From positions 1-64,000 of the forward strand of contig JALSGP010000007.1 of NCBI GenBank assembly GCA_026982705.1: a DNA stretch of 64,000 bases, read 5' to 3'. Of the stretch, positions 1-23,359 are shown piece after piece; positions within the stretch are counted from its first letter, which is position 1, and each line of letters starts with the position of its first letter. A model generated the notes under the pieces. It was given only the letters and a program-made list of their open reading frames with translations, did no database searches and had not been told where the DNA came from. This DNA is from Alphaproteobacteria bacterium. Lineage in GTDB: Bacteria > Pseudomonadota > Alphaproteobacteria > Geminicoccales > Geminicoccaceae. A program made the translations under genes and the position numbers.

Positions 1-3000
1 GTGCCGGTGGCGCGGGTCGCCGTCGGGACACCGCTCACCGTGACCCTGCGCCGGCCGGTGCGGGCCGATCGACTGCGCGTGCTCCCCCGCATCCCCGGCG
101 GGTCCGTCTACCGCCTGCGGATCGAGGTGAGCCCCGACGGCGAGGGCTGGGAGACGGTCGAGGACGTCGAGGACGTCCGGGGACGTACGCCGGTCGGCGT
201 CGCCCTGGCCGATCGCCCGGTCCAGGGCGTGCGGGTGACGGCGACGGCGCGGACCGGCGACAGCCGGGTGCTCGAGCTCGAGGAGATCGAGCTCTGGAGT
301 CGCGACCACATCCCGCGCCTGCGCTTCGACCTCGCCTGGGCCGGCCACGGCGGACGGGTGATCGGCGTCGCGCCGCCCGTGGACGAACCCCAGCGGCCTC
401 TCTTCTCTCTGATCGACGGCAATCCCTCGAGCTGGTGGGCCGGCGCCCCCGGCGCTTCCGAAGTGGAGGTGACCCTGGGCTTCCTCGAGGACCGCACCTT
501 CGTGGTGGATGCCGTCCAGCTGGTGGTGGATCCGACCAAGGGGATCCCCGCGCGACTCGAGATCCAGGTCAGCACCGAGGGACCGGACGGTCCGTACCGG
601 ACGGTCGGCGTGTTCGAGGTCCCCGAGGAGCGCGAACCGCTGTTCGTCTTCGACCCCCATCCGGCTCGCTATGTGCGGCTGCGGGCGATGGAGCCGCGGG
701 GTTCGGCCCGCATCTGGCTCGCCGCGGTGCGGATCTTCGAGGCCGAGGGCGAGGGACTGCCGTCGCGCTTTGCCACCCTCGCCGCGATTCCGTCCGAGGC
801 GCCGCCGGCGGCACGCAATCTCGCGCTTTGGGCCAACGGCGGTGAGCTGGTCGCCCGTCCGGCGGCACTGGAGGGCGAACCGCGTCGCCTGCAGGACGGC
901 ATCTTCCACAGCGGGGCGGTGCATTTCGAGCTCGAGGAAGCCCCGTTCGTGCTGGCCTTTCTCGGCGGGCGACGGGTGCGCGTCGACGAGGTCAGGTTCC
1001 ATCCGCAGAACTTCGGCTGGCCCGGAAGGGTGCGCGTCGAGGTGGCCGAGACGCCGGAAGGCCCCTTCACGCCGGTGGCCGATCGCCTGCTGCCGCCCGG
1101 CGAGGGCTGGCGTGCCGTGCGCTTCGAGCCGGTCGAGACCCGCTACCTCCGCCTCGTGATCCGGCCGGATCCCCGGGACGGAGGCAAGGAGTCCCTGACC
1201 GAGATCGCGGTGCTGGAGCGGCCCCGGGAGGGGGCGCCCTCGGTGCTGGAGGTGCCGAACGCGGAACGGCGGCCCCTCGGGCCGAACTTGGCCCTCGCCC
1301 CGCTCGGCGGCCGCGTGGTGCGTGTCACGTCCGAGGAGCGGCACCAGGGCTGGTCGGCCCGCCGGCTGATCGACGGACTGGTGGCCGATCAGTGGTATCT
1401 CGCGCGCGGCTCCGGCGGATTCGTCACGGCGAAGGCGCCCACCTGGCCCGTGGAGATCGACCTCGCCCTCGCCGGTGACCGGCCGGCCCGGCTGGTCGGC
1501 ATCGGCATCGACCCGCAGGTGCGGGTGCGCGAGCTCGGCTTGTTGGACACCGATTTCCGCGCCGCCCCCGAGGACCGGCCCCGCCGGTTCGAGATCGAGA
1601 CCAGCCTCGACGGCACGTCCTGGACCCCGGTGCTGCGGGGCATGCTCCGCCCCCACTGGGTGCGACAGGTGTTCGCCTTCGCCGAACCGGTGTCGGCCCG
1701 CTTCGTGCGCTTCCGCTTCCTCGACAACTATGGCGGCAAGCGCCTGGCCCTGGGCGAGCTCGAGGCCTATGGCGATCCCACGCGGGACACCGTGTCCTGG
1801 CCCCTCGCGAATCGCGAATTGAACATTGCCCGACCGGAACTGGGCGGGGCGGTGGTGACCTACACGTCCCAATATGCGGGCGGCGAGGCCTACGTCGGCA
1901 ATCTGTTCGACGGTGAGCCGAAGAGCATCTGGAGCCCCGGTGACGGGTGGCGCTGGCCGCAGAAGGTGGTGCTCGCCTTCGCCGGCAACGCCGAGGCCGA
2001 GATCGCGGCGCTCGAGATCATACCCCGTGAGCCCGCCTATCGGCCGAAGGTGGTCAAGATCCGCACGAGCCGCGATCCCAACCCCACCCGTGGCTACACC
2101 CTGGTCGGCCGCTTCGAGGCACCCGCCGACGTGCCGAGCTGGCGGATCGACTTCCCCGAGCCCGTGCGCGCCCGCTTCCTGGAGGTCTCCTTCGTCGAGG
2201 GGTTCGATCCACGGCGCCTCGGCGTGGGCGAACTCCGGGTGATCGAGGTCCGCCGTCCCGGCTATCGTTCGGTGCTGGCGCGCGCCGCCGAGGACCGCGG
2301 TGGGGTCGGCACGGACGAAACGCGCGAGCAGCCCTGGACGATCGCGGCCGACCTCGGGGAACGCGAGCCCAACGACGACCCGGCCTCGGCGCAGATCGTG
2401 GAACCCGGCCCCGGTGTGGCCGGCCGCATCGATCCCCTGGGCGAGCGCGACACCTATCTGCTCACCACCACCGACGAGATCCCGCGCGCCTATCGCTTCG
2501 CCATCGAGGGCCGCCCCGCGCTCAAGACCCGCCTCGAGGTGGAGGACAAGGGTGGCGAGACGGTCTTCACCCTCGATCCCGCTCGCGGTCGCAGCCGGTT
2601 CGAGGGAACGGTGACGCTCGGCCAGGCCTCCCACCTCCTCCGACTGTACGAGCCGCGCACCCGCATTGTGCTGGTGGTGGACAAGAGCGGCAGCATGGAG
2701 GCGCGGATGGAGGACGCGCGCGCGGCGGTGGAGCGCTTTCTCGCCGGCATGACCGAACAGGAGGAGATCGCGCTCCTGGTGTTCTCGAAGGAGGTGGAGC
2801 TGGCGCAGGACTTCACCGCCGACCGTACGGCGCTGCGCGCGGCGGCACGCAGGACGCTCCGGGCGGGGGGCGGGACCCGGCTCTACGACGCCATGATGCA
2901 GGCGACCGAGCTGCTGGAAGGCTATCGGGGCAACCGGGCGATCGTGCTGCTGTCCGACGGTGCCGACAGCGGTTCCGAAGATGCGGAGGCCGGCACGGTG

Positions 3001-5043
3001 TTCGCCCGCATGCGCGAGAGTGGCATCCGCTTCTATGCCATCGCCCTCGGCGAGGGAATGTGGCGCTACGAGCCCGCGATCGGCACGGTGCCCGCGCGCA
3101 TGCTGGATTTCTGGGCGCGGGCCAGCGATGGGGCGATGCTCGCGACCCCGAGTTCGAGCGAGCTCGAACGGCTCTATGCCCGCATCGCCCGGGATCTGCG
3201 CAGCGGCACCCGCTATCGCTTCCGCCTGACGCCGGAGGAGGGCCGCGGCCGACTGGTGGTGCGCCAGACCGGCGAGCGCATCGCCGGCGTCGGCGTGCCC
3301 GATCGCATCCTGTTCATCCTCGATGCGTCCGGCTCCATGCGCGGCAAGGACGCCCGCGGAAAGGTCAAGATGCGCACCGCCAAGCGGGTGCTGACCGATC
3401 TGGTGCGCGCGCTGCCCGACGACGTGATGGTGGGCCTGCGCGTCTACGGCCATCGCTATCCACGCAAGCCCAAGGCGCGCAGCTGCACGGACAGCCAGCT
3501 GGTGGTGCCGTTCCAGCGGGTGGACAAGGATGCCTTCGCCGCCTTCGTCGAGCAGATCCGCCCGCGCGGCCAGACTCCCATCGGTCTGTCGCTGGCGCAG
3601 GTGGCCGACGACTTCGGCGATGTGCCGGGCCGCAAGGTGGTGGTGCTGATCACCGACGGCGAGGAGACCTGTTCGCCGGAACCCGGCGATCCCGACCACC
3701 CGCCCGCGGTGGTCCGGCGACTGCAGGAACGGGGTGTCGACGTGCAGGTCCAGATCGTCGGCTTCGACATCCGGAAGTCCGAGGTGCGGGACTTCCTCGA
3801 GGAACTCGCCGCGAGCACCGGCGGGCGCTTCTACCGGGCGGACGACGCCGCGGGCCTCGCCCGGGCCCTGGACGAGGCGCTGCGGGCCCGTTTCCGGGTG
3901 GTGGACCTGTTCGGTCAGGTGGTCGCCGAGGGCGTGCTGGACGGCGGCGCGGTGGAACTGCCCGCCGGCCTCTACCGGCTCGAGGTGGCCTCCACCCGTC
4001 CGCTGGTGGTGGAGGAGGTGCGCATCGAGGCCGGGCGCGAGACCCGCATCGACATCAACCGCGAGGGCGAGGAGATCGCCGTCGATCGCAGCATCGGCGC
4101 GCCCGTCACGGCGCTGGCGCGGGCCGAGGGTCCGGCGCCCACGGGGACGGTGACCCGACCGGAAGCGACCGAGGGCACGCCGGCCACCGCGCAACCGCCC
4201 TCCCCCGCGGCGCCATCCGGACCGGCGCCCGCGGTCTCGCCGCGGGAGACGCGCATCGCGATGCTCCTGGACGAGGCGGAGGACCTGTTCCGGCAGCAGA
4301 AACTGACCACGCCCGAGGAGGAGTCGGCGCTCGCCCGCTATCGGGCGGTGCTGGCCCTCGATCCCGACAATGCGGAGGCCCGCGCCGGCATCCGGCGGAT
4401 CGTCCGCACCTATGCGGCATGGGCCGACCGGGCCGAGAAGCGGGGCGATCTCGCCAAGGCGGAACGCTACTACGGCCGTGCGCTGGTGGCCGATCCGCAG
4501 GCGGGCGAGGTCTACATGCTCCGCGGACTGGTGCGGCTGCAGCGCGATCGTTACCGGCAAGCGGCGCAGGATTTCGAGCGTGCGCGCCGGCTGATGCCCG
4601 ACCGACCGGAGGCCGATTTCTATCTGGGGATCGCCGAGCTCAAGGCCGATCGGCCGGAGAAGGCGCTCGCCCCGCTCGAGCGGGTCTGGCAGAGCGAGTC
4701 GGATCGACGTTTCGATGCGGCCCACCTGCGGGCCATCGCCCTGATCCAGGCCGACCGTCCGCGCGAGGCCTTCGATCAGCTGATGGCCGCCCTCGAGGCC
4801 AAGGGCGACTGCGAGTCCGCGCCCCTCGACGACACCTGCACCCAGTTCTGGTCACTCACCGTCCTGAGCCTGCGGATGATGGGCCGGGACGACGTGGTCA
4901 TGGAGAGTATGCCGGAGGTGCTGGAGCTCGGCCCCACCTCGCCCGAGGTCTACGATGCCGTGGCCGAGACCTTCCGGGACAACGGCCGCGAGGAGGAGGC
5001 GCGGCGGATCGAGGCCATGCGCCGACAGCGCTTCGGGCGCTGA
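1..5043 (+). CDS. Giant discoidin-like / double VWA / TPR protein (5' end may be outside window)
   Basis: This is an open frame of 1680 codons from the first base of the window (GTG); no signal peptide is visible, so the true start is probably upstream. Residues about 1-760 hold roughly five discoidin (F5/8 type C)-like beta domains, recognisable by repeated 'NLA...GG' openings, 'LIDG/LFDG' and 'ARYVRLR/ARFVRFR' strands. A segment near 785 starting EPNDDPASAQIV resembles a bacterial pre-peptidase C domain. Two von Willebrand A domains follow, with MIDAS motifs DKSGSM (about 895) and DASGSM (about 1108). A Pro/Ala linker then leads to TPR-like helices (about 1415-1680). The family role would be an extracytoplasmic binding scaffold with metal-dependent adhesion domains; the ligand is unknown. 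It ends 6 bp from a converging gene. Confidence 0.85.
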   Translation: MPVARVAVGTPLTVTLRRPVRADRLRVLPRIPGGSVYRLRIEVSPDGEGWETVEDVEDVRGRTPVGVALADRPVQGVRVTATARTGDSRVLELEEIELWSRDHIPRLRFDLAWAGHGGRVIGVAPPVDEPQRPLFSLIDGNPSSWWAGAPGASEVEVTLGFLEDRTFVVDAVQLVVDPTKGIPARLEIQVSTEGPDGPYRTVGVFEVPEEREPLFVFDPHPARYVRLRAMEPRGSARIWLAAVRIFEAEGEGLPSRFATLAAIPSEAPPAARNLALWANGGELVARPAALEGEPRRLQDGIFHSGAVHFELEEAPFVLAFLGGRRVRVDEVRFHPQNFGWPGRVRVEVAETPEGPFTPVADRLLPPGEGWRAVRFEPVETRYLRLVIRPDPRDGGKESLTEIAVLERPREGAPSVLEVPNAERRPLGPNLALAPLGGRVVRVTSEERHQGWSARRLIDGLVADQWYLARGSGGFVTAKAPTWPVEIDLALAGDRPARLVGIGIDPQVRVRELGLLDTDFRAAPEDRPRRFEIETSLDGTSWTPVLRGMLRPHWVRQVFAFAEPVSARFVRFRFLDNYGGKRLALGELEAYGDPTRDTVSWPLANRELNIARPELGGAVVTYTSQYAGGEAYVGNLFDGEPKSIWSPGDGWRWPQKVVLAFAGNAEAEIAALEIIPREPAYRPKVVKIRTSRDPNPTRGYTLVGRFEAPADVPSWRIDFPEPVRARFLEVSFVEGFDPRRLGVGELRVIEVRRPGYRSVLARAAEDRGGVGTDETREQPWTIAADLGEREPNDDPASAQIVEPGPGVAGRIDPLGERDTYLLTTTDEIPRAYRFAIEGRPALKTRLEVEDKGGETVFTLDPARGRSRFEGTVTLGQASHLLRLYEPRTRIVLVVDKSGSMEARMEDARAAVERFLAGMTEQEEIALLVFSKEVELAQDFTADRTALRAAARRTLRAGGGTRLYDAMMQATELLEGYRGNRAIVLLSDGADSGSEDAEAGTVFARMRESGIRFYAIALGEGMWRYEPAIGTVPARMLDFWARASDGAMLATPSSSELERLYARIARDLRSGTRYRFRLTPEEGRGRLVVRQTGERIAGVGVPDRILFILDASGSMRGKDARGKVKMRTAKRVLTDLVRALPDDVMVGLRVYGHRYPRKPKARSCTDSQLVVPFQRVDKDAFAAFVEQIRPRGQTPIGLSLAQVADDFGDVPGRKVVVLITDGEETCSPEPGDPDHPPAVVRRLQERGVDVQVQIVGFDIRKSEVRDFLEELAASTGGRFYRADDAAGLARALDEALRARFRVVDLFGQVVAEGVLDGGAVELPAGLYRLEVASTRPLVVEEVRIEAGRETRIDINREGEEIAVDRSIGAPVTALARAEGPAPTGTVTRPEATEGTPATAQPPSPAAPSGPAPAVSPRETRIAMLLDEAEDLFRQQKLTTPEEESALARYRAVLALDPDNAEARAGIRRIVRTYAAWADRAEKRGDLAKAERYYGRALVADPQAGEVYMLRGLVRLQRDRYRQAAQDFERARRLMPDRPEADFYLGIAELKADRPEKALAPLERVWQSESDRRFDAAHLRAIALIQADRPREAFDQLMAALEAKGDCESAPLDDTCTQFWSLTVLSLRMMGRDDVVMESMPEVLELGPTSPEVYDAVAETFRDNGREEEARRIEAMRRQRFGR

Positions 5044-5049
5044 GCTCTG

Positions 5050-5571
5050 TCAGCGGCCGGCGGCGGTGAGGCAGCGGCGGGTGAGACTGGCGGTGAGGGC
5101 GTCCACCGCCACTTCCCGCAGGGGCCAGCTCCGCAGCGAGGCCACCTCCGGCGGCGGCGCCACGTAGACGAAGCCGGAATAGGCGAAGCCGTCGCCGGTG
5201 GGCCGGCAATCGGCGAGACGGACGGCGGGATCACGGTCCAGGATCACGAGGCGGGGCCCGGCGAGGCGCAGCCACAGCTCACCGGGTTCGAGGGCGGTGA
5301 GATTGCCGCGGCAGGCGGGCTCCGGCGGCGGTTCGGAAAGGCGCACCCGCAGGTCCAGCAGCACCACCTCGCCCTGGCGCCGCCGCAGGAAGGCGGCGAG
5401 CGCCTCCTCCTCCGGGGAGGGTTCGCGGGCGAAGGCCTCCTCCGCCGGTGGCAGATGGAGGGCGACGGCGAGGGCGGCGAGGCGCCGCTCGTCCGGAAGA
5501 CATTCGACGGCGGCCCGGACGGGAAGGGCCGCCAGCAGTGCCGCCAGCACGATCAGCCGCCGGACCCCCAT
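5050..5571 (-). CDS. Small secreted protein of unknown function
   Basis: It encodes 173 residues starting MGVRRLIVLAALLAALPVRA, a clear Sec signal peptide followed by a short mature domain. The mature part has four Cys (in ECLP, ACRG, DCRP and RRCL), which suggests disulfides in the periplasm. A GTG at 5706 lies in the same frame, but only the ATG at 5571 places the hydrophobic leader at the N-terminus, so that start was chosen. I recognise no family. It is the last gene of the minus-strand run that begins at 11532, 89 bp after the preceding gene, and it converges on the giant VWA gene. Confidence 0.65.
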   Translation of the reverse strand: MGVRRLIVLAALLAALPVRAAVECLPDERRLAALAVALHLPPAEEAFAREPSPEEEALAAFLRRRQGEVVLLDLRVRLSEPPPEPACRGNLTALEPGELWLRLAGPRLVILDRDPAVRLADCRPTGDGFAYSGFVYVAPPPEVASLRSWPLREVAVDALTASLTRRCLTAAGR

Positions 5572-5706
5572 CGCACCAGCGGCGGCACCAGCAGCGCCAG
5601 CAGCAGTCCGCCGCCCACCAGCAGCGACACCGCTCCAGCGCAGCGGCAACCAGCGATCGATCAGTCGGGCGAGCGCCGGGATCCACGGGTCGATTCCCTC
5701 GGACAC
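5553..5706 (-). pseudogene. Possible small membrane-protein ORF broken by a frameshift
   Basis: From GTG 5706, preceded by a GGAGAGGAGG-type ribosome site, the frame reads VSEGIDPWIPALARLIDRW and then loses coding character. One base away a different frame carries a convincing membrane helix (VSLLVGGGLLLALLVPPLV) and ends at TGA 5555-5553, overlapping the next gene's ATG by 19 bp. Removing one G near 5632-5640 would join the two into a single protein of about 50 residues. The helix frame is also the frame of the upstream 515-residue protein after its stop at 5661. It could therefore be a small gene with a frameshift or sequencing error, or the disrupted C-terminal anchor of the upstream protein. 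Confidence 0.3.
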
Positions 5707-7208
5707 CCCTCCTCTCCGGGCCGCAGGGGCGCACTCACCAGCAGCCGGCCGAGACCGTGGCCGGCGAAGTCGGGACTGTAGACGGCGCGAAGCACGCCGG
5801 CCCCGGCCGGGACCGGCAGCTCCACGGTGAGCGCGGCGCCGGGAGCCAGTGTCACCCGATCCCCCTCCGCCAGCGGATCCGGCGCCCGTCCCGGCATCGC
5901 GCCGACGAGGCCCGGACGCGGGGCCTCCGCCGCCGGCATCAGTCGCACCGTCGTCGTCGTGAGGGGACGCACCCGCGCCGGCGTCGCACCGCGGTTCTCC
6001 AGGACCACCCGCACCCGTCCCGCACCGGCGCAGACGAGTCCCAGCCGCAGGGGTTCGGTCAGGGCGCGCTCCGTCGCAGCCTCGGCGGCGGGGACCAGCC
6101 GTGCCACCCAGCCGCGCGGCGGGTCCTCGCCGCGGAACCACCCGGCCAGATAGAGCACGCCGTCGCCGTCGCGGGCGAGGCGGACGGGGACGGTGGGGCG
6201 ACCGCGGTCCCCCAGATCGGCCACCGGCTGCGGCCGCCCGCCCGGTCGGTGGACCAGCAGCTCCCCCCGCTCGCCCTCGCCGTCGTCGCGGGCGACGGCC
6301 AGCAGGACCGCTCCGTCCTCGAGGGCAAGCCCCGCGCCCACCATGCGATCGACCCCGTCGAAGGGCCCCTCGACCGCGAGCACGGTGCCGTCCTCCCGCC
6401 GCACCGTGGCGAAGACCGGGTGGAAGCGCACGCCGCGGTCGGTGAGGAGTCCCGCGTGCCCCACCAGCCGCAGCACCTCGCCCGCGGGGAACACGGCGAC
6501 CGGCTCGAAGCCGTCCCCGTCGCCGAATCGCCGCTGCCAGAACGGTTCTCCCTTGAAGCCGAAGCGGGCGAGCCAGCCGCCGAGACCGGCGCCGGCGGCC
6601 TCGAAGGACCATCCGCCCGCGAGGAAGTCCTCCGCGCCCAGGATCCGCGCCACCTGCGCCGAGCGCGGCCGCACATCCTCGAAGGGCCACTCCCCCTCCA
6701 GCACCAGCCCGTCGGCACGGAAGACGGCGGCCACGCCGACGGCATCCGCGCCCATGGCCGGCCCCGCCTCACCCACCGCCAGCACGCGCCCGAAACCCGT
6801 GTCCACGGCATGGAAGCGAACCGGTCCGCCGCCCCCCACGGTGGCCTCGGCGAGCCGGCGGCCGCGCCTCGGATCCAGGACCACCACCCAGCCGCGCGCG
6901 GGCACCGTGGTCGCCTCCTGCCACGAGCCCACCAGCACCACGCGCCCGTCCCCGAGGGCGGCCCCGTCGCGGAAGTCGCAGCGGAGACAGTCGATGGACG
7001 TGCGGCGCCCCACGGCGAGGGTGGCGGGGTCCAGCAGCGCCCACCAGGCCCGGCCATCGGTCCCGGGGCCCGCCGCCAACAGCCCCGCGGGCGTCGGCAC
7101 CAGCACGTGGACCTCGTCCGGAAACCGGACGAGGTCCGTCACCCGCCAGGTCTCCGCCGCCGCCGCGGTCCCCATCGCCCACAGGGCGATCAGCGCCGCG
7201 GCCAGCAT
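5661..7208 (-). CDS. Secreted beta-rich protein of unknown function
   Basis: It encodes 515 residues beginning MLAAALIALWAMGTAAAA, a Sec signal peptide. An in-frame ATG at 7253 would add 15 polar residues before the leader. The ATG at 7208 was preferred because it exposes the leader and has a G-rich ribosome site. The mature part alternates short hydrophobic strands with Gly-Asp-Gly turns (GDGRVVLVG, EDGAVLLAVARDDG, GDGVLYLAGW), as in WD40- or Kelch-like beta-propellers. Its last 150 residues (VRVVLENRGATPARV) look like an Ig-like domain. Function is unknown. The extreme C-terminus may be altered by a frame change (see the entry at 5553-5706). Confidence 0.65.
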   Translation of the reverse strand: MLAAALIALWAMGTAAAAETWRVTDLVRFPDEVHVLVPTPAGLLAAGPGTDGRAWWALLDPATLAVGRRTSIDCLRCDFRDGAALGDGRVVLVGSWQEATTVPARGWVVVLDPRRGRRLAEATVGGGGPVRFHAVDTGFGRVLAVGEAGPAMGADAVGVAAVFRADGLVLEGEWPFEDVRPRSAQVARILGAEDFLAGGWSFEAAGAGLGGWLARFGFKGEPFWQRRFGDGDGFEPVAVFPAGEVLRLVGHAGLLTDRGVRFHPVFATVRREDGTVLAVEGPFDGVDRMVGAGLALEDGAVLLAVARDDGEGERGELLVHRPGGRPQPVADLGDRGRPTVPVRLARDGDGVLYLAGWFRGEDPPRGWVARLVPAAEAATERALTEPLRLGLVCAGAGRVRVVLENRGATPARVRPLTTTTVRLMPAAEAPRPGLVGAMPGRAPDPLAEGDRVTLAPGAALTVELPVPAGAGVLRAVYSPDFAGHGLGRLLVSAPLRPGEEGCPRESTRGSRRSPD

Positions 7209-7291
7209 CCGGATCCCCCGCACGGTCCCCTCCGCCGTCTCTGCGGGGTCCATTCTAGCGGGACGCGGCACCGGCGACGAGCCGGAAACCC

Positions 7292-7930
7292 TCACCGGCG
7301 CCCGCGCGGCCCGGTGCCAGCCCGTTCCACCCGCACCAGCTTCAGCCGCTCGCGGCGGCCGTCGGCCCACTTCTTGGACCGCTCCACCCAGTGCCCGAGC
7401 CCGGAGGACCAGTACCAGACATGGGTGCGGAGCACCTCGCCGGTCTCCGGGTCGTGACGGCGGCAGACCACCTTCCAGGTGGGGAAGACGCCGGCCGGCA
7501 CCACCCGCTCGCGGGCGCCGGCGGCGCGACAACGCCAGAGTTCCGTGCGCCTGGTCCGGCGCCCGTCCTTCTTGCGGATCACCTCGTAGGTGACGCGGAC
7601 GGTGCGGCGGCTGCCCTTGCGGGCGGGGTGCAGATCCCCGCGCACCTCGAGGGCGACGGTACGCCCGCGGGTGCGGCGGCCGTCCCATGCCACCATGGGC
7701 ACGAAGGGATCGACCTTGACGAAGGTAACGCCGCGGTCAGTGCGCCAGGTCACGCGCTCACCGTCCACCCGCACCACCTCGCGGACCGTCTCGCGGCCGC
7801 GGGCATCCACGTAGACGAAGCGATCGCCCGGAAGATGGCCGGTCCGTTCGAGGGCGGGGGTGGCGCAGGCGGCGAGCAGCAGCAGACCGCAGCCGGCGAT
7901 GGCGGTGCGCAGGATCGTCAGGCGGCGCAC
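7292..7930 (-). CDS. Putative lipoprotein of unknown function
   Basis: It encodes 212 residues. The leader MRRLTILRTAIAGCGLLLLAAC ends in the lipobox LAAC, so the product is predicted to be cut and lipidated by Lsp. GTG 7930 was chosen because GGAG lies 8 nt upstream and the lipobox then falls at the normal position. The mature protein is short, basic and beta-rich (RTVRVTYEVIRKKDGRRTRR), with a Trp-rich patch near HVWYWSSGLGHW; the shape suggests a beta-barrel or lipocalin-like fold, but I do not recognise the family. Its first 13 bp overlap the end of the hydrolase gene, so translation of the two is probably coupled. Confidence 0.75.
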   Translation of the reverse strand: MRRLTILRTAIAGCGLLLLAACATPALERTGHLPGDRFVYVDARGRETVREVVRVDGERVTWRTDRGVTFVKVDPFVPMVAWDGRRTRGRTVALEVRGDLHPARKGSRRTVRVTYEVIRKKDGRRTRRTELWRCRAAGARERVVPAGVFPTWKVVCRRHDPETGEVLRTHVWYWSSGLGHWVERSKKWADGRRERLKLVRVERAGTGPRGRR

Positions 7931-8727
7931 GGCAGGGACTCCTTTTCGGCAGAGACGTGGCACAGTTCGGTGAAGATCCGTTCCACCAGCCGCCCGCGGG
8001 CCGGGTCCACACAGGCGGCGAAGTCGTGACCGGCGCCGGGCAGCAGCTGGAGGACCACATCGACGGCGAGGCCCCGTCGGTGGGCCGCCGTCTCGAGGGC
8101 CGCGCACCAGCGGCGCGCCCGCTCCAGCCGGTTCGTGCCCTGCAGGGCGTCGAGGCGGCTGCCGCTACGGACCGTCTCGTCGCGCTCGATGTCCTCGCTG
8201 CCCACGAACACGCGGATGGGACGGCGCAGGAAGGGTTCGAGACGGAAGACGAGATCGGGCAGCCGCCGGCATGGCGCGAGCCCGTAGGGATAGCGGAGGT
8301 CCGGATCGGGCATGGTGTACCAGCCGGCCGCCGCGAGCAGGAGGACGTCGACGAGATGCGGCCAGGCGAGGGCGAAGCGGTGGGCGAACTGGGCGCCGCC
8401 GGAGAAGCCGAAGAGGGAGAAGCGCCGCACCGGCCGCCCGCGACGCGCCTCGAGATCGGCGAGGGCGGCGAGGAGGCCCAGATCGGCCCGCCGGCCGCGG
8501 CGCCCGAGCCGCTGATAGTCCGGATAACGGGTGGCGTCGAACAGCGGCGCCATCACCGTCCAGCCGCAGCGCCGCGCCGTCTCGTGGAACGCCCGCGCAT
8601 GCGCCTCGGCGTTGCGGGAGATGCCGTGCACCGCGACCAGCAGCGGAGAGGCGGGATCGTCCGCCGCACCCGCCAGCCAGTAGGGCGGGTGGTCGTCACG
8701 ACCGGCGATCCTCTCGATCCGATCCAT
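7918..8727 (-). CDS. Alpha/beta hydrolase
   Basis: It encodes 269 residues of the alpha/beta-hydrolase fold. VAVHGISRNAEAHA supplies the oxyanion-hole strand and turn, GFSGG is the nucleophile elbow with the catalytic Ser, and GAGHDF carries the C-terminal His. The layout resembles PHB-depolymerase-like or feruloyl-esterase-like hydrolases; there is no signal peptide, so it is probably cytoplasmic. ATG 8727 is preferred over GTG 8745 because AAAGGAGT lies just upstream. It sits between the ABC exporter, whose TGA overlaps the alternative GTG, and the lipoprotein, suggesting a role in the same process. The substrate is not evident. Confidence 0.85.
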   Translation of the reverse strand: MDRIERIAGRDDHPPYWLAGAADDPASPLLVAVHGISRNAEAHARAFHETARRCGWTVMAPLFDATRYPDYQRLGRRGRRADLGLLAALADLEARRGRPVRRFSLFGFSGGAQFAHRFALAWPHLVDVLLLAAAGWYTMPDPDLRYPYGLAPCRRLPDLVFRLEPFLRRPIRVFVGSEDIERDETVRSGSRLDALQGTNRLERARRWCAALETAAHRRGLAVDVVLQLLPGAGHDFAACVDPARGRLVERIFTELCHVSAEKESLPCAA

Positions 8728-8741
8728 CGACCGTACTCCTT

Positions 8742-10418
8742 TCACATCGCATGTCCCGGAAACACCACGAGCCCGGCCGAGGCCGGCCGCCCCACCGCGC
8801 GGCCACCCTCGAGCCGGATCTCCAGATCGACGGGTTCCCCTTCCGAAATCTCGTGGGTCGCCGTCACCAGCGTGCCGGGAAAGGCCGCGAGCACCCGCCG
8901 CACCGCCTCGCGGGCGGCGTCGTCGAGACCGGCCTCGGGCTCGTCCACCAGGAGCACCCGCGGTTCCGCCAGCAGCGCCCGGGCGAGGCCGAGGCGCAGC
9001 CGCTCGCCGGCCGAGAAGTTGCGGCCGCCCTGGGCCACGGGTGCATCGAGGCCGCCCGCGTGGCGGATGCGCGCTCCGAGCCCCAGCTCCTCCAGGAGCG
9101 CCAGCACGCGCGTCTCGTCGACGGGGTCGTCACGGCCGTAGAGCAGGTTCTCGCGCAGGGTCCCGGCGAGCAGGGGGAAGGCCTCACCGGCGGCCGCCAC
9201 GGCCCGGCGCCGGGCGCGCGGCCGCAGGGCGTGGACCCGCACGCCGTCGATCTCCACCCGGCCGCGGTCGGGGCGCAGGACGCCGGCCATCACCAGCAGC
9301 AGCGTGGTCTTGCCAGCGCCGCTGGGACCGGTGAGGCGCACGCGGCTGCCGGGCTCGGCGACGAAGTCGATGCCGGCGAGACGGTCGCCCAGGGCGAGGT
9401 CCCGGACCACCAGCCGTCCCCGGCCCGGCGGCAGTTCCGCGCGCCCGCGCCGGCGCACCGCCGGCGCCGTGAGCAGCGCCGCCACCTTCTCGAAGGCGAC
9501 CCGTGCCTCGGCCTGGCGACCGCGAAGCCGGGTCAGCTCCCGGACCCGCGGCGCCAGCAGCCCCACCAGCAGCATCCCCGCCACCACCGTCCCGGGGGTG
9601 CTCCATCCCTCGCGCACGGCCAGGCCCCCGACCAGCACCACCACCGCGGGGCTGGCCAGCGCGCCCGCCTCCCCCACCGCGGCGAGCCCGGCGAGGCTGC
9701 GGGCGCGCGCGATGGCGGCGGCGGCCAGCGCCCGGCTGGCGCGGGCGAGGCGGCGGGCCTCCCCCCGCTCGTGGGCGAAGGCCTCGACGGTCACGAGTCC
9801 CTGCAGACGGTCGTGGAAGAGGGCGGCGAAGCGCCCGCGCCGGCGCCGCAGGCGACGGCTGGCCTCGGCCACGTCGCGTCCCTCCAGATGGCTCGCCAGT
9901 GCCACCACGCCGACCGCCAGCGCCGCCACCGCCGCCAGCAGCGGATCCAGCACCGCCAGCACCAGCAGGGTGCCGCCGATGGCCACGGCGTTGACCACCG
10001 CCCGCGCCACCCCGCGCCGCAGCCAGTTGCCGATGGCCGAGAGATCGGAGCTGGTGCGCACCAGCACGGTGCCGACGCGACCGCCGGTCACCCGCAGCGG
10101 ATCGAGCCGGAAGAGACGGCCGATCACCCGTTCCCGCAACAGATGGACGTAGCCCTGGGCGAAGCGTTCGGCCTCGATGCGCTCGAAGCGTCGCAGCCAG
10201 GCGGCGAGGCCGGCGGCGACGGCGAGGCCCGCCCCGAGCGGCATCAGGCCCGCGGTGCCGTCCGCGGCCACCGCCCGGTCGAAGCCGTCCCGCACCAGGC
10301 GGACGGCGACCACCCCGAGGACGGCCTGGACCACGCCGGCCGTCACCAGCCGCGCCAGCCGGCGACGACCGTCGCCGGCCGCAAGGGGGGGCAGGGGTTC
10401 AGGCAGCGACCAGGGCAT
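8742..10418 (-). CDS. ABC exporter half-transporter (membrane domain fused to ATPase)
   Basis: It encodes 558 residues. The N-terminal half (about 20-310) is an ABC transporter type-1 membrane domain with around six helices. The C-terminal half is the ATPase, with Walker A GPSGAGKTT, a divergent signature FSAGERLRLG instead of LSGGQ, Walker B VLLVDEP and H-loop ATHE. One fused half-transporter would work as a homodimer; this layout is typical of lipid, peptide or drug exporters. It starts inside the last 20 bp of the P-loop NTPase gene and ends at GTGA with the hydrolase, so the three are co-translated. The cargo cannot be read from the sequence. Confidence 0.9.
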   Translation of the reverse strand: MPWSLPEPLPPLAAGDGRRRLARLVTAGVVQAVLGVVAVRLVRDGFDRAVAADGTAGLMPLGAGLAVAAGLAAWLRRFERIEAERFAQGYVHLLRERVIGRLFRLDPLRVTGGRVGTVLVRTSSDLSAIGNWLRRGVARAVVNAVAIGGTLLVLAVLDPLLAAVAALAVGVVALASHLEGRDVAEASRRLRRRRGRFAALFHDRLQGLVTVEAFAHERGEARRLARASRALAAAAIARARSLAGLAAVGEAGALASPAVVVLVGGLAVREGWSTPGTVVAGMLLVGLLAPRVRELTRLRGRQAEARVAFEKVAALLTAPAVRRRGRAELPPGRGRLVVRDLALGDRLAGIDFVAEPGSRVRLTGPSGAGKTTLLLVMAGVLRPDRGRVEIDGVRVHALRPRARRRAVAAAGEAFPLLAGTLRENLLYGRDDPVDETRVLALLEELGLGARIRHAGGLDAPVAQGGRNFSAGERLRLGLARALLAEPRVLLVDEPEAGLDDAAREAVRRVLAAFPGTLVTATHEISEGEPVDLEIRLEGGRAVGRPASAGLVVFPGHAM

Positions 10419-11532
10419 CGTCGGGAAGCCAGGCGGTTTCCTCGAGCCGGGCGGGTGGCACCACCGGCAGGTCGAGATGGTGGCGGCACTCCTCCACGGC
10501 GAGGGGCGAGAGGGTGAGGGCCCCGGAGACGGCGAGGAGGGGCAGTCCGCGCTCCCGCGCCCAGGCCCGGCCGGCGAGCGCGCCGGCGGCGTCGGCGGCG
10601 GCCAGCAGGAGCCCCCGCACTAGGCCCGCTCGGCACAGCTCCTCCACCAGCCGGGCGCTGTCCTCGAACAGGAAACCGTCGGCCACTTCCACCACCAGGC
10701 GCTCGACGCCGCGGCGGATGGCCTCGGCCACCAGCACCCGTACCGTCTCCCACTGGCGGGGCCAGGGGACGTCGGCGGTGGAGGGCAGGCCGTGATCGCT
10801 CGGATCCAGCACCACCTCGGCACCGGCGTCCAGATAGGCGAAACGGTCGCCGGCGCTGGCCGTCCCGCTGGCCTTGATGGCCCCCACCGCGAGACCGAGG
10901 CGGCGCCAGCCCCGCACCAGTGCCGCCGCGGTGGTGGTCTTGCCGGCGTTCATGGCGGTGCCGGCGACCGCCACCGCCAGCGGTCGCGGTCCGTCCGGCA
11001 GCCGGGAATCCGCACCGGCGAGGGGCGCCGTGTCGCGGGTGTTCCACACCCGCCCCGTCTCGTCGGCGAGAAGGCCCAGGGGCGCGATGCGGGTGGGCGC
11101 CCGGACGCCGGCGTGGCGGGCGATGCAGCGGCCGGCGAGGCCGCCCGCCGCCAGCAGATGGCAGGCGCCGAGACGGGACGGGACCTCGCCGCGGAACTGA
11201 TCGGGCGCGTAGCGGGCGCCGTAGACCAGGATCACCTCGTCGCCCGGCTGGAGATCGGCCCGTCGGCCCGTCTCCGTTTCGAGACGGCGATGGCGGCCGA
11301 TCTCCAGCACCCGCGCCAGCACGTAGTCGCCGATGCGCGGCCGCGCGCCCGGTCCGCGCACCAGGCACGCCACCCGGCCGGCATCGAGATGGCGCGCCAT
11401 GAAGGCGCGGCGGGCGGCCCGGAGCTGGACCGACCGCAGACGATAGCGCTGACGTTCACTGTCGGCGTCGGCCAGAACGGCCGGTCGCACCTCCGCGAGG
11501 TCGTCCTCTGCGCGCGCGTCGAAATCCCGCAT
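10399..11532 (-). CDS. P-loop NTPase, DUF1611/MobB-like
   Basis: It encodes 377 residues. Residues about 190-210 (VAGTAMNAGKTTTAAALV) form a Walker A loop of the type in MobB, dethiobiotin-synthetase-like and DUF1611 proteins. LVVEVADGFLFED may supply the second acidic motif. Residues 40-160 form a separate beta-rich domain (VLARVLEIGRHRRLE, GDEVILVYGARYAPDQF) that I do not recognise. It is the first gene of the minus-strand run and overlaps the ABC exporter gene by 20 bp. A role in activating or loading a substrate for the exporter is conceivable, but this rests only on gene order. Confidence 0.7.
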   Translation of the reverse strand: MRDFDARAEDDLAEVRPAVLADADSERQRYRLRSVQLRAARRAFMARHLDAGRVACLVRGPGARPRIGDYVLARVLEIGRHRRLETETGRRADLQPGDEVILVYGARYAPDQFRGEVPSRLGACHLLAAGGLAGRCIARHAGVRAPTRIAPLGLLADETGRVWNTRDTAPLAGADSRLPDGPRPLAVAVAGTAMNAGKTTTAAALVRGWRRLGLAVGAIKASGTASAGDRFAYLDAGAEVVLDPSDHGLPSTADVPWPRQWETVRVLVAEAIRRGVERLVVEVADGFLFEDSARLVEELCRAGLVRGLLLAAADAAGALAGRAWARERGLPLLAVSGALTLSPLAVEECRHHLDLPVVPPARLEETAWLPDDALVAA

Positions 11533-11666
11533 CCCTCGTCCACGCTCCGTGTCCCGCTCCCTTCCATAGGGTGCGAAGCTTGCAGGAGGCTTGCGTCACC
11601 GGCGAGCGGATGCGCTCCAGAGAGCACGAATGTGTGAAGAAAGGGTGAAGACGGCCGCCGGAACGG

Positions 11667-11693
11667 GCCGGATCGGGAACACCGGGATCCGGC
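11667..11693 (-). terminator. Stem-loop after the oxidoreductase gene
   Basis: GCCGGATC (11667-11674) and GATCCGGC (11686-11693) form a perfect 8-bp inverted repeat with an 11-nt loop. It lies directly downstream of the stop of the indolepyruvate oxidoreductase gene as read on the minus strand. No T-tract follows, so if it is a terminator it is not a classical intrinsic one. Confidence 0.35.
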
Positions 11694-11698
11694 GGACG

Positions 11699-14600
11699 TC
11701 ACTCGGCGGCGGCCGCGAGCGGCTCGGCCCGTCCCTCGAAGCGGGCGAGAAGGGCCGCACTGCGGGCGCGCCAGTCGGCGATGGCGCGTTCCTTGACGTG
11801 GCCGAAGCCCCGCACCCGCCCGGCCAGCGAGGCGATCTCCACCGCGAGGGCGTGATTGGCGGGCGAGAGACCGGCGAGGAGTCGTTCCACCTGGGCCCGG
11901 TACTCCTCTATGAGCGCCCGTTCGGTGCGCCGCTCGCGGGTCCAGCCGAAGGGATCGAGGGGCGTGCCGCGCAACCGGCGCAGGCGTGCCACCAGCCGGA
12001 AGACGTGGCGCATCCAGGGCCCGTAGCGGGCCTTGCGGAGATGGCCGGTGCGGGGATCGCGGCGCGCCAGCAGCGGCGGCGCCAGATGATACTCGATGCG
12101 CGTGATGCCCTCGAACTCGCGCGCAAGCGCCGCCTCGAAGCGGCCATCGGTGAACAGTCGGGCCACCTCGTACTCGTCCTTGTAACTCATGAGCCGCCCG
12201 AGGGCGTCCGCCACCGCCCGGGCGAGATCGTCCCGTCCCGGTACCCGGCTGCGCTCCACCTCCCCCACCCGGGCGACGAAGGCACGATAGCGCTCGGCCC
12301 AGGCCCGGTCCTGCCAGGCCTCGAGGCGGGCCGTCCAGCGGGCGATCCGCGCATCCAGCGTCTCCGCCTCCGCCGGTACCCCGCCCTCGATGCCGGCGAG
12401 GCGCCGGACCTCCCCGGGATCGAGGGCGGCGAGACGGCCGAAGCGGAAGGCCCGGCGGTTCATCTCCACCGCCACGCCGTTGAGCTCGATGGCCCGCTCG
12501 ACGGCGGCCGGGGAGAGGGGCAGAAGCCCCTTCTGGCAGGCGTAACCCACCAGCAGCAGATTGGCGCCGATGGCATCGCCCAGGAGCCGTCGCGCGAGAC
12601 CGGTGGCGTCGAGGAAATCCACCGCCTCCGCCCCCACCGCCTCCTCCAGGGTCCGGCGGAGCCGCGCACCGGGCAGGCGGAAGTCGGGATCGCGGGTGAA
12701 GGTGCCGGTGGGGATCTCGGCGGCGTCCACCACCGCCCGGGTGCGGCCGCGGGCGAGGGTGGGCAGGGCCACCGGCCCCGCGCTCACCACCAGATCGCAG
12801 CCCAGCAGCAGATCGGCCGAACCCGGCGCCACCCGCGGCGCGCCGATGGTGGCCATGTCGGGGCCGATCTTGAGGAAGGAGACCACCGCGCCGCCCTTCT
12901 GGGCGAGGCCGATCATGTCGAGACCCGCCGCGCCCTTGCCCTCGAGATGGGCGGCCATGGCCAGGATCGCCGCCACCGTCACCACGCCGGTGCCGCCGAT
13001 GCCGGCGACCACCACGCCCCACGGTCGCACCAGCGGCGGCGGCACCGGCTCCGGCAGCCGCTCCAGCCGCTCGCTCGCCGCCATGGGCGCGCGCCTGGGA
13101 CGGCCGCCCACCACCGTCACGAAACTGGGGCAGAAGCCGTCGAGACAGCGGTAGTCCTTGTTGCAGGCCGACTGGTCGATCCGCCGCTTGGTGCCGAAGG
13201 GGGTCTCGGACGGCAGGATGGCAACGCAGTTGGAGACCAGCCCGCAGTCGCCGCAGCCCTCGCACACCTCCTCGTTGACGAACACCCGCACCGGCGGGTC
13301 CGGATATTCGCCGCGCTTGCGGCGTCGACGTTTCTCGGCGGCGCAGGTCTGGTCGTAGACGATGGCGGTGACCCCGGGGGTGCGGCGGAATCGCTCCTGC
13401 ACCGCGTCCAGCTCCTCGCGCGGATGGACGCGCACCCCCCGCGGCCATTCGGTGCCGATGGGATATTTGTGCGGGTCGTCGGTGACCACCGCCACCTCCC
13501 GCACTCCCTCCGCCACCAGCAGGCGGACCAGCTGGGGGACCGTGAGATTGCCCACCTCCATCTTCTGGCCGCCGGTCATGGCGACGGCGTCGTTGTAGAG
13601 GATCTTGAAGGTGACGTTGCAGCCGGCGGCCACCGCCGCCCGCACCGCCAGCGAGCCCGAATGGTAGAAGGTGCCGTCGCCCACGTTCTGGAACACGTGC
13701 TCGCGGTGGACGAAGGGGGCCTGGCCGATCCAGGAGGCGCCCTCCCCGCCCATCTGGGTGAAGGTGGCGGTGTCGCGATCCATCCACTGGGCCATGAAAT
13801 GGCAGCCGATACCGGCCAGGGCCCGCGATCCCTCGGGCACGCGGGTGGAGGTGTTGTGGGGACAGCCGGGGCAGAACCAGGGCAGGCGCACCACCGGCGG
13901 TGTCCGGCGGGCGGCCGCCCCGGCGCGGGCGGCGAGGGCCTCGGCCCGGCGGACCAGCGCCTCGTCGCCGGCGAGCTCGCCGAGCCGTCGCCCCAGCTCG
14001 GCGGCGATGCGATCGATGGCCAGGGCCCCGTAGGAGGGGAACAGTTCGGCGCCGAAACGGTCCCGCTTGCCCTCGATCAGTGGACGGAGGGGGGCGTCGT
14101 AGAGGAGGGTGCGCATCTGGTCCTCGATCAGCGGGCGCTTCTCCTCCACCACCAGCACCCGCCCGACGCCGGCCACCGCCCGCTCCAGCCCCCGCGGCTC
14201 CAGCGGGAAGACGAGCCCCACCTTGTAGAGCCTGAGCCCCAGCCGCGCCGCCCTCGCGAAGTCGAGCTCCAGGAGATCGAGGGCGGCGATCACGTCGAGA
14301 TAGGACTTGCCGGTGGTGACCAGCAGCAGCCGCGGCTCCTCGGGTTCGATCACGATGCGGTCGAGGGCGTTGGCGCGGGCGAAGGCGCGCACCGCCTCCA
14401 GTTTGTGACGGTGGAGCCGGCGTTCTTGGGCGAGGGCCATGGAGGGCCCGATGCCGTGGTCGGGCCAGCGGATGTGGAGCCCGTCCTCCGGCGGCGTCCA
14501 GTCCTCCGGCTCGCGGATGGCGGGGTGCGCCGGATCCACCGCCACCACCGCGGTGCTCTCGACGGTGTCGTGGACGCACTTGAGGGCCACCCAGGCGCCG

Positions 14601-15181
14601 GAGAAGCGCGACATGGCGATGCCCAGGAGGCCGAATTCCAGGATCTCCTGCACCCCCGCCGGGTTCAGCACCGGCACCATGGCATCCACCATGGCGTATT
14701 CCGACTGGTGGGCGGTGGTGCTGCTCTCGCAGAGATGGTCGTCGCCCAGCAACAGCAGCACGCCGCCTCTGGGGTGGGTGCCGAAGAGATTGCCGTGGCG
14801 GATGGCGTCGCCGGAGCGGTCCACGCCCGGCCCCTTGCCGTACCAGATGGCGAAGACGCCGTCGTACTTCTGCTCGCCGAAGAGGGCCACCTGCTGGGTG
14901 CCCTGGCAGGCGGTGGCGGCCAGTTCCTCGTTCACCGCCGGCTGGTGGACCACCCGGTGTTCCTCCAGGAGCGCCCGTGCCCGCTGGAGCTGGAGATCGT
15001 AGGTGCCGAGGGGCGAGCCGCGATAGCCGGTGACGTAGCCGGCGGTGTGCCAGCCGCGGGCGCGGTCCCGCCGGATCTGGTCCAGGGGCAGACGCACCAG
15101 CGCCTGGATGCCGGTCATCAGCGCCGCCCCCCGCTCGAGGCGGTATTTGTCGTCGAGGCTCACCGCGCGCAGCTCGCTCAT
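11699..15181 (-). CDS. Indolepyruvate:ferredoxin oxidoreductase, fused alpha/beta type
   Basis: It encodes 1160 residues, the usual size of the proteobacterial fused enzyme. It should oxidatively decarboxylate aryl-pyruvates (or related 2-keto acids) with CoA and ferredoxin, in the cytoplasm. The N-terminal pyrimidine-binding domain includes GYRGSPLGTYDL; the TPP domain includes FCPGCPHNTST and GDGTFYHSGS. Cys clusters CEGCGDCGLVSNC and CNKDYRCLDGFC suit Fe-S centres. The C-terminal half starts GIGGTGVVTVAAILA, the gamma/beta domain. ATG 15181 has AGGAGGGGAG directly ahead. It appears to be transcribed alone, with 166 bp before the next minus-strand gene. Confidence 0.92.
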   Translation of the reverse strand: MSELRAVSLDDKYRLERGAALMTGIQALVRLPLDQIRRDRARGWHTAGYVTGYRGSPLGTYDLQLQRARALLEEHRVVHQPAVNEELAATACQGTQQVALFGEQKYDGVFAIWYGKGPGVDRSGDAIRHGNLFGTHPRGGVLLLLGDDHLCESSTTAHQSEYAMVDAMVPVLNPAGVQEILEFGLLGIAMSRFSGAWVALKCVHDTVESTAVVAVDPAHPAIREPEDWTPPEDGLHIRWPDHGIGPSMALAQERRLHRHKLEAVRAFARANALDRIVIEPEEPRLLLVTTGKSYLDVIAALDLLELDFARAARLGLRLYKVGLVFPLEPRGLERAVAGVGRVLVVEEKRPLIEDQMRTLLYDAPLRPLIEGKRDRFGAELFPSYGALAIDRIAAELGRRLGELAGDEALVRRAEALAARAGAAARRTPPVVRLPWFCPGCPHNTSTRVPEGSRALAGIGCHFMAQWMDRDTATFTQMGGEGASWIGQAPFVHREHVFQNVGDGTFYHSGSLAVRAAVAAGCNVTFKILYNDAVAMTGGQKMEVGNLTVPQLVRLLVAEGVREVAVVTDDPHKYPIGTEWPRGVRVHPREELDAVQERFRRTPGVTAIVYDQTCAAEKRRRRKRGEYPDPPVRVFVNEEVCEGCGDCGLVSNCVAILPSETPFGTKRRIDQSACNKDYRCLDGFCPSFVTVVGGRPRRAPMAASERLERLPEPVPPPLVRPWGVVVAGIGGTGVVTVAAILAMAAHLEGKGAAGLDMIGLAQKGGAVVSFLKIGPDMATIGAPRVAPGSADLLLGCDLVVSAGPVALPTLARGRTRAVVDAAEIPTGTFTRDPDFRLPGARLRRTLEEAVGAEAVDFLDATGLARRLLGDAIGANLLLVGYACQKGLLPLSPAAVERAIELNGVAVEMNRRAFRFGRLAALDPGEVRRLAGIEGGVPAEAETLDARIARWTARLEAWQDRAWAERYRAFVARVGEVERSRVPGRDDLARAVADALGRLMSYKDEYEVARLFTDGRFEAALAREFEGITRIEYHLAPPLLARRDPRTGHLRKARYGPWMRHVFRLVARLRRLRGTPLDPFGWTRERRTERALIEEYRAQVERLLAGLSPANHALAVEIASLAGRVRGFGHVKERAIADWRARSAALLARFEGRAEPLAAAAE

Positions 15182-15292
15182 CTCCCCTCCTCCCCGACGC
15201 GCGCCGCCGGCGTCCCCACCAGAGGTCCCGGCACCCGGCCGGATTATAGGGCGGCGGGCGGGCGCCGGTAGGGCGGCGGCGCGCGGCGGCCC

Positions 15293-15321
15293 TTGACGCC
15301 GCCGGGAGCGCTCCCTATTGC
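15293..15321 (+). promoter_or_regulatory. Promoter of tRNA-Gln
   Basis: TTGACG (15293-15298) and TATTGC (15316-15321) are separated by 17 bp, which puts the transcript start a few bases before the tRNA. The 17-bp spacer contains a perfect 12-bp palindrome GGGAGCGCTCCC (15304-15315). The GC-rich stretch between the -10 box and the tRNA resembles the discriminator of stringently controlled stable-RNA promoters. Confidence 0.65.
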
Positions 15322-15337
15322 TCCGGGCAGGCCGGGA

Positions 15338-15411
15338 TGGGGGATAGTTTAACGGTAGAACGCTCGGCTCTGGACCGAGTAGTCCTGGTTCGAATCCAGG
15401 TCCCCCAGCCA
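15338..15411 (+). tRNA. tRNA-Gln (anticodon CTG)
   Basis: The 74-nt cloverleaf is complete. The acceptor stem TGGGGGA pairs with TCCCCCA. The anticodon arm is CTCGG-CTCTGGA-CCGAG with CTG at the anticodon position. The T arm contains GGTTCGAATCC, the discriminator base is G, and the CCA end is encoded. It is the only RNA gene I find in the window. Confidence 0.97.
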
Positions 15412-15508
15412 AATCTCCCGCACCCGTGGTTCGCGTGCGTCCCGTGCTGGACGTGGCGTCCGCTCACGCTATGGTGAGAGCGGCGCACGGGAGGGATCGA
15501 GCCGGCCG

Positions 15509-16282
15509 GTGAGCGCCGCACCCGAAAGACCCGAGAAGACGGACCGGGCCGAGCCGCTGCTGTGGTCGCAGGCGCCGCGCCGCTGGTGGCGGCGGTTGCT
15601 GGCGCGTCTGCGCAACTATCTCCTCGCCGGCATCGTGGTGACGGCGCCGGTGGGCATCACCTTCTACATCGTCTGGCAGATCGTCGACTTCTTCGACGAG
15701 TGGGCCGCCGCCTTCATCCCGGCCCGCTACAATCCCAACACCTACCTCCCCTTCAGCCTGCCCGGCATCGGCTTCCTGCTGATGCTGGGGGTGCTGGTGG
15801 CGGTGGGCTGGTTCACCGCCAGCTACGTGGGCCACAGCCTCATGCGCCTCGGCGAGCAGGTGCTGCGGCGCATGCCGGTGGTGCGGAGCATCTACGGCAC
15901 CCTCAAGCAGATCTTCGAGACGGTGCTCTCCAGCTCCTCCCGCTCCTTCCGCGAGGTGGTGCTGATCGAATATCCCCGCCGCGGCATCTGGTGCATCGCC
16001 TTCGTCACCGGTCCCACCCGCGGCGAGATCGCCGGGATCCGGCCCGAGCTCGAACTGGTCAACGTGTTCCTGCCCACCACGCCCAATCCCACCTCGGGCT
16101 TCCTGCTGTTCGTGCCGAGGCGCGACGTGATTCCCCTCTCCATGTCCATCGAGGACGGCATGAAGCTGGTGATCTCCGGCGGCATCGTGGTGCCGGAGAC
16201 CATGACGGAGCCGGATTCAGCCGGCGCGCAGGAGGTCCCGCGCCCCGTCGTGGTCGAACAGTTCCAGAAGCAGCCGTCGTGA
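15509..16282 (+). CDS. DUF502 family membrane protein
   Basis: It encodes 257 residues. Two membrane helices, about 36-58 (LLAGIVVTAPVGITFYIVW) and 84-108 (GIGFLLMLGVLVAVGWFTA), are followed by a conserved cytoplasmic or periplasmic domain with PVVRSIYGTLKQ, the signature of the DUF502 family. The family's biochemical role is not established. The start is a GTG with GGGAGGG about 14 nt upstream, so a slightly different start is possible. Its last 66 bp overlap the 3' end of recG on the opposite strand. Confidence 0.88.
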   Translation: MSAAPERPEKTDRAEPLLWSQAPRRWWRRLLARLRNYLLAGIVVTAPVGITFYIVWQIVDFFDEWAAAFIPARYNPNTYLPFSLPGIGFLLMLGVLVAVGWFTASYVGHSLMRLGEQVLRRMPVVRSIYGTLKQIFETVLSSSSRSFREVVLIEYPRRGIWCIAFVTGPTRGEIAGIRPELELVNVFLPTTPNPTSGFLLFVPRRDVIPLSMSIEDGMKLVISGGIVVPETMTEPDSAGAQEVPRPVVVEQFQKQPS

Positions 16283-18310: not shown

Positions 18311-18333
18311 CTCTACCGCGCGGAGATATGGCC

Positions 18334-22133: not shown

Positions 22134-22185
22134 CGTGACCTATCTCGGAAGGAGGCGACTGGCGCGGGCCCGGCTCGCGCGATAG

Positions 22186-23295
<1,110 letters not shown>

Positions 23296-23359
23296 GGCCC
23301 GGCCGTGGCCTCGGTGCGCGCATGGGTCCGCGGGAGTCCCGGTCGGGGAGGTAGGTTCG

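Follow-up and report, generated by a model that had tools for sequence, protein, structure and literature searches.

A P-loop NTPase beside an exchangeable transporter: a candidate export cassette in an alphaproteobacterial gene block

The gene block and its conserved core

We analyzed a 64,000-nucleotide stretch of DNA from a Geminicoccaceae alphaproteobacterium (the window: contig JALSGP010000007.1 of GCA_026982705.1, which is contig C7 of a 2.66-Mb assembly in 48 contigs), with attention to six open reading frames (ORFs) confirmed on its minus strand at 5050-11532. These ORFs, here termed genes A to F, encode a P-loop NTPase, an ATP-binding cassette (ABC) exporter, an alpha/beta hydrolase, a lipoprotein, and two secreted proteins (Table 1). 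All six are called by codon scoring and have homologues in related genomes, and hence they are not chance ORFs. The first-pass annotation of this DNA had described six co-oriented genes with overlaps of 20 bp (A-B) and 13 bp (C-D) and gaps of less than 100 bp, which the ORF coordinates bear out. Its 3-bp overlap between B and C needs amending: the overlap is 4 bp if C starts at GTG 8745, and the likelier start, ATG 8727, which is preceded by AAGGAG, leaves a 14-bp gap instead. The GTG start of D at 7930 is preceded by AAAGGAG; the D-E gap is 83 bp, or 38 bp with an upstream ATG at 7253, and the E-F gap is 89 bp. D carries the lipobox LLAAC, and the N-termini of E and F, as judged by eye, are signal-peptide-like. 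A pattern scan of 5000-11900 yielded no sigma-70-like promoter, a result that is little informative at 75% GC, and one terminator-like site, which lies inside B and is at chance level.

Table 1. Genes of the block and the adjoining gene, with positions in the window
Feature	Position	Strand	Remarks
Gene A, P-loop NTPase	10399..11532	-	377 aa; residues 181-376 BioD/DUF1611-type fold; residues 30-176 conserved beta domain
Gene B, fused ABC exporter (membrane and ATPase domains)	8742..10418	-	558 aa; every ATPase motif present
Gene C, alpha/beta hydrolase of LpqC/PahZ1 type	7918..8727	-	269 aa from ATG 8727; S109-D179-H234
Gene D, lipoprotein, GTG start	7292..7930	-	212 aa; kept beside A-B-C in close relatives
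Gene E, secreted protein without known family	5661..7208	-	515 aa; in a separate E-F unit in relatives
Gene F, secreted protein without known family	5050..5571	-	173 aa; comes after E in relatives
VWA/F5_F8 type C/TPR protein	1..5043	+	Reaches the window edge; convergent with E-F here

Comparison with relatives indicates that A, B, and C form a widespread core and that A-B-C-D is a conserved four-gene cassette in close relatives. A profile search of genome contigs with A returned at least 595 candidate stretches, at least 565 of which encode a relative of A, and the best 80 of these were kept. Together with further loci, they gave a tree of 91 A proteins, drawn from Pseudomonadota, Cyanobacteriota, Actinomycetota, Chloroflexota, and Thermodesulfobacteriota, and a set of 92 nonredundant loci (L015-L101, the window, two plasmid loci, and two genome loci) on which the counts below are based. 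L102 and the remote homologues L159 and L160 (27-31% identity) are omitted from these counts, and L028, the reading of which began before a stop, is omitted from alignment A2 and the tree. In 23 of the 92 loci less than 3 kb is available on one side, so the neighbor counts are lower bounds. Gene calling missed A in L022, L029, L059, L068, L070, L073, L081, L097, and L099, which are omitted from the operon lists, and the neighbor family scan covered 102 of 107 listed neighbors.

The pairing of NTPase and exporter that the first-pass annotation proposed to check by gene neighborhood proved to be conserved, with B following A in 79 of the 92 loci by hidden Markov model (HMM) search; L068 adds a tblastn match to B at a contig end. 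C lies on the strand of A, within -1.5 to +9 kb, in 59/92 loci, and 8 of the 10 matches to C at E<1e-10 in 60 related genomes are in A or B loci. D is within 9 kb, on either strand, in five loci. These direct counts supersede an earlier neighbor clustering, in which the A, B, and C clusters were represented in 80, 74, and 51 of 87 loci. The spread of A is patchy: it occurs in 7 of 60 related genomes and, at E<1e-30, in 5 of 398 genomes of the phylum, own genome included. Eight plasmid records match A, and one of these matches covers 80% of the query. The public record of a Microvirga ossetica plasmid labels an A homologue (L102, 7911-9674) "transposase." Searches of the literature on DUF1611, PahZ1, cyanophycin synthetase, and SIMIBI-transporter topics found no publication on an A-B-C-D module.

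Genes E and F as a separate unit

The first-pass annotation had read the block as one pathway running from A to F. We sought D, E, and F each in 40 genomes, own included, and found E in G001, G004, G018, and, weakly, G016; F in G001, G004, and G018; and D in G001, G002, G018, G007, and G031. The E-F pair is on a different contig from A and D in G018 and G001; in G018 and G004 it lies directly behind a homologue of the VWA gene, head to tail, while in the window the VWA gene is convergent with E-F. Neither A nor D was found in G004, though E-F is present there. The congener G002 has a B-C-D stretch that is 71.9% identical to the window in DNA, with B cut by the contig end; E and F were not found in this genome, which is 89% complete. 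We conclude from these arrangements that A-D and E-F are two units: A-D stay together, E-F go with the VWA gene, and their adjacency in the window is that of two units that have come side by side. A dedicated six-gene pathway would account for the contiguity, shared orientation, and short gaps of the genes, but it is very improbable given the separations just described and the partial sets in G004 and G002, and we reject A-F as a conserved unit. What stands of the proposed pathway is thus the A-B pair, the frequent C, and the D that is linked in close relatives; the membership of E and F does not stand.

The very large VWA protein, with its F5_F8 type C and TPR domains, makes up with E and F an uncharacterized secreted set.

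The NTPase A and its N-terminal domain

The full model of A, made from an 80-row alignment, has a mean predicted local distance difference test score (pLDDT) of 91.9. Residues 181-376 match BioD (Z 16.4), signal recognition particle GTPases, and DUF1611 proteins (Z about 15), and the matches of the whole structure reflect this P-loop domain. The DUF1611 fold is represented by 2g0t (Z 15.3) and 2obn (Z 15.2), scores that are tied with those of many other SIMIBI-class chains. Residues 30-176, predicted alone, form a confident (pLDDT 92.6), mostly beta domain, for which a search of PDB structures found no match (best Foldseek E value, 0.69; best VIA Z, 2.6 among 989 chains). The first-pass annotation had called the N-terminal domain unknown; for this predicted model, the lack of a PDB match does not prove a new fold. 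Invariant residues across the 80 rows fall in both domains, namely, H81, R107-Y108-A109, D111, and C124 in the N-terminal one and G197-K198-T199, K220, D229, D235, E282, and D285 in the P-loop one. Such a pattern is expected of a protein with two functional parts, and it suits an enzyme. The motif G..M[NS].GKT is intact in 91/91 A proteins (that of L017 has an internal stop, read through with X), and the K..TGT..D stretch of the A profile lines up with BioD and MobB.

Three known families come close to A, and the window protein falls below every Pfam and NCBIfam cutoff, so that we assign it to no known family. MobB is the commonest family match (65/80 rows in Pfam, 56/80 in NCBIfam) and the best PDB sequence match (E = 0.0018), the likeness being in the P-loop region, where GKT is followed by a K...D...GA segment. 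However, A scores 16 bits against a cutoff of 76.2 (TIGR00176) and 14.2 against 26.6 (PF03205), has a beta domain of ~145 residues before the P-loop domain, and keeps other gene neighbors. DUF1611 proteins (PF07755; 2obn and 2g0t), of which DgcN acts on D-glutamate, share the fold of the C-terminal domain, and 16 of the 80 rows match PF07755 at E<=0.001; yet the window protein scores 16.7 bits against a cutoff of 25, and its N-terminal part is mostly beta, with no other DUF1611 domain listed. BioD shares the C-terminal fold (3.0 A over 180 residues), the P-loop, and the lysine of the K..TGT stretch, but A reaches 11.3 bits against a cutoff of 83.3 (TIGR00347), is ~16% identical, and has the extra domain.

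The transporter B and its replacements

B passes the cutoffs of ABC_membrane (63.7 bits; cutoff, 28) and ABC_tran (85.6 bits; cutoff, 25), and its Walker A, signature, Walker B, and H-loop motifs read GPSGAGKTT, FSAGE, LLVDE, and TATHE. The FSAGE signature had been described as divergent; it is not exceptional, relatives having LSAGE, LSTGE, FSLGE, or LSLGQ. In architecture and in its best NCBIfam matches B resembles CydD/CydC, from which it differs in scoring 181.7 against a cutoff of 435 (TIGR02857) and 165.3 against 329.05 (TIGR02868), in being one gene rather than a pair, in having a partner NTPase, and in the loss of the ATPase in some of its relatives.

Contig ends truncate three of the 79 B matches (these three lack Walker A), leaving 76 uncut proteins. 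Sixty-five of these keep Walker A, and in 11 it is absent: the ATPase domain is degenerate in L016, L019, L049, L103, L157, and L158, and B ends after the membrane domain in L017, L018, L047, L053, and L086. In further Bs, such as L050, L020, and L087, Walker A is kept and the catalytic motifs are weak. On the A tree, the absence of Walker A requires seven changes, with five independent pairs on well-supported branches. Other loci have a different transporter in place of B. One well-supported clade of seven has a major facilitator superfamily (MFS) gene near A and C, and L015 and L058 have a type I secretion system (T1SS)-type ABC protein with HlyD, joined in L015 by TolC. In a clade of five Actinokineospora loci A has neither B nor C, and no match to either was found in 14 kb at L159 and L160. 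As judged from these gene sets, the transporter is exchangeable and the NTPase A is constant.

Subtilase (S8) genes occur near A in L016, L017, L018, L047, L053, L086, and L103, in all seven of which B has no Walker A. Sigma-factor-like and anti-sigma-like genes, recognized by eye, follow the S8 gene in L016 and L103, and the S8 gene of L053 has an anti-sigma-like gene beside it. We do not retain a link between S8 genes and ATPase-less Bs, as L097, where Walker A is present, also turns up in a laxer search, and the pairs in the tree test are too few for significance. In L017 and L018 a gene for an OpgC_C-family membrane protein is directly upstream of A and the membrane-domain-only B.

The hydrolase C and recurring neighbors

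The nearest solved relatives of C are LpqC (75.3 bits; E = 5e-20) and PahZ1 (69.5 bits; E = 2.9e-18). It shares their catalytic residues and has in common with PahZ1 a GWYTMPD...YPYGL segment. Of the triad, S109 and H234 are each kept in 51 of 52 rows and D179 in 49, with one row gapped and two having Glu at 179. PahZ1 is reported to cleave beta-Asp amide bonds (PMC4456602). Unlike these relatives, C has no obvious signal peptide and is part of an exporter operon, and its activity is a prediction.

Other families recur within 9 kb of A, on either strand: a porin (Porin_O_P or OprB) in 29/92 loci, a histidine kinase together with a response regulator in 20/92, Asp_Arg_Hydrox in 11/92, and an MFS carrier in 7/92. 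The gene order in L015 is A, ABC, HlyD, a cyanophycin-synthetase-like ligase, TolC, and C, and L058 has the same order without TolC; HlyD and TolC of L015 pass the NCBIfam cutoffs, which the ligases do not. A Microvirga plasmid carries, on the strand opposite to A, a CapA-annotated protein that lies near A and resembles the ligase of L015 and L058, together with an HlyD and an ABC protein. PADLOC found no match for A, C, D, E, or F and matched B by its ATPase domain only, and we reject a defense system on this basis. The envelope or export role proposed in the first-pass annotation remains reasonable, given the conserved A-B pair, the frequent C, the linked D, and the nearby porins.

A possible export cassette and the alternatives to it

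The reading that we favor, albeit tentatively, is that of a small, patchily distributed export cassette in which an amino-acid-like substrate is activated by A, carried out of the cell by B or its replacement, and cleaved by C at an amide or ester bond. A would use ATP or GTP to activate or modify, in the cytoplasm, a small, probably acidic amino-acid- or isopeptide-like substrate; B would export the product, a task that in other lineages would fall to an MFS carrier or to an exporter of type I secretion; and C, as a serine hydrolase of PahZ1/LpqC type, would act on the amide or ester bond. The outward route may be completed by a porin in many Gram-negatives, and E and F stand outside the cassette. 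We infer this substrate, direction, and chemistry from the observed conservation of the gene set, the exchange of transporters, the predicted folds, and the conserved residues of C. The likeness of C to PahZ1, the Asp_Arg_Hydrox genes, and the cyanophycin-synthetase-like ligases point loosely to acidic amino-acid or isopeptide substrates and are to be taken as a lead rather than a result. Several observations weigh against such a cassette. Two genomes supply the cyanophycin-synthetase-like links, and the two proteins scored reached 470 and 244 bits, far below the cutoff of 877. C has a signal-peptide-like start in some lineages and none in others, so its compartment is ambiguous. The loss of the ATPase of B in 11 loci is left unexplained, and A occurs without B and C in the five Actinokineospora loci and in the two remote ones.

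The decay of the ATPase suggests another role for A, that of an energizing or gating partner of B with no biosynthetic function: a SIMIBI-class NTPase would dock on the membrane domain of B, and the ATPase of B could then decay. ArsA energizes or gates the membrane protein ArsB. The likeness to this pair, a comparison of arrangement and not of sequence, is a SIMIBI-class NTPase beside a membrane transporter, which here, by way of difference, is of ABC or MFS type. The repeated losses of Walker A, five of them down to the membrane domain alone, against a P-loop of A that is always intact, argue for this role, as does the lack of any separate ATPase-domain gene in the called operons of the five membrane-domain-only loci, to which that search was confined. 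Nevertheless, most of the uncut Bs keep Walker A, the MFS and T1SS substitutes would need no second energy source, and A occurs without any transporter in Actinokineospora. We consider such a partnership unlikely, if worth keeping in view, and give rather little credence to its fuller form, in which A, with a new N-terminal fold, would act on the membrane domain of B and replace its ATPase; driving or gating of the transporter by a SIMIBI-class partner would then explain why the ATPase domain has disappeared several times. It is improbable, too, that A is a MobB-like adaptor or carrier, supplying enzymes or the exporter with a cofactor or modified compound and catalyzing no ligation. The frequency of MobB among the matches of A fits such a carrier, but the matches of the PDB and of the window protein are weak and limited to the P-loop region, the N-terminal domain has no MobB counterpart, and the neighbor scan showed no recurring cofactor gene family. 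The cassette might also serve efflux, for detoxification or resistance, in many cases controlled by a two-component system, and C would then degrade the toxic compound. The kinase-regulator pairs, the porins, the patchy spread, and the plasmid records would suit it; yet two-component systems are common, the counts of 20/92 and 29/92 are raw ones with no background rate, no resistance family was matched, and no PADLOC model fits A, C, or D, and we regard this as improbable as well.

The family of A spans five phyla and goes mostly by weak DUF1611 or MobB labels. It contains a domain without recognizable fold, and its neighbor is a transporter that is of another type in some loci and without its motor in others. 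The substrate of the cassette, once found, would give a function to hundreds of gene clusters, and if A does drive an ATPase-less ABC membrane domain, this would be a new way of powering transport.

The flanking region

In the congener G002 the B-C-D stretch abuts the tRNA-Gln region without the oxidoreductase gene that lies between them in the window. Beside tRNA-Gln, 9.8 kb (15262-25014 in the window; 36-9781 in L151) are 81% identical in the congener, compared with 72% for B-C-D; relative to its flanks, the cassette may have arisen more recently or be evolving faster. The oxidoreductase gene has a longest ORF (11699-15412) that extends back over tRNA-Gln (15338-15411), so the beginning of this ORF is probably noncoding; the tRNA region accounts for its match in L151. 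Elsewhere in the genome, a partial second copy of D with ~65% identity over 58 residues is found at a contig end (contig C17, L153, 2840-3013), which may represent a second cassette split by the assembly.

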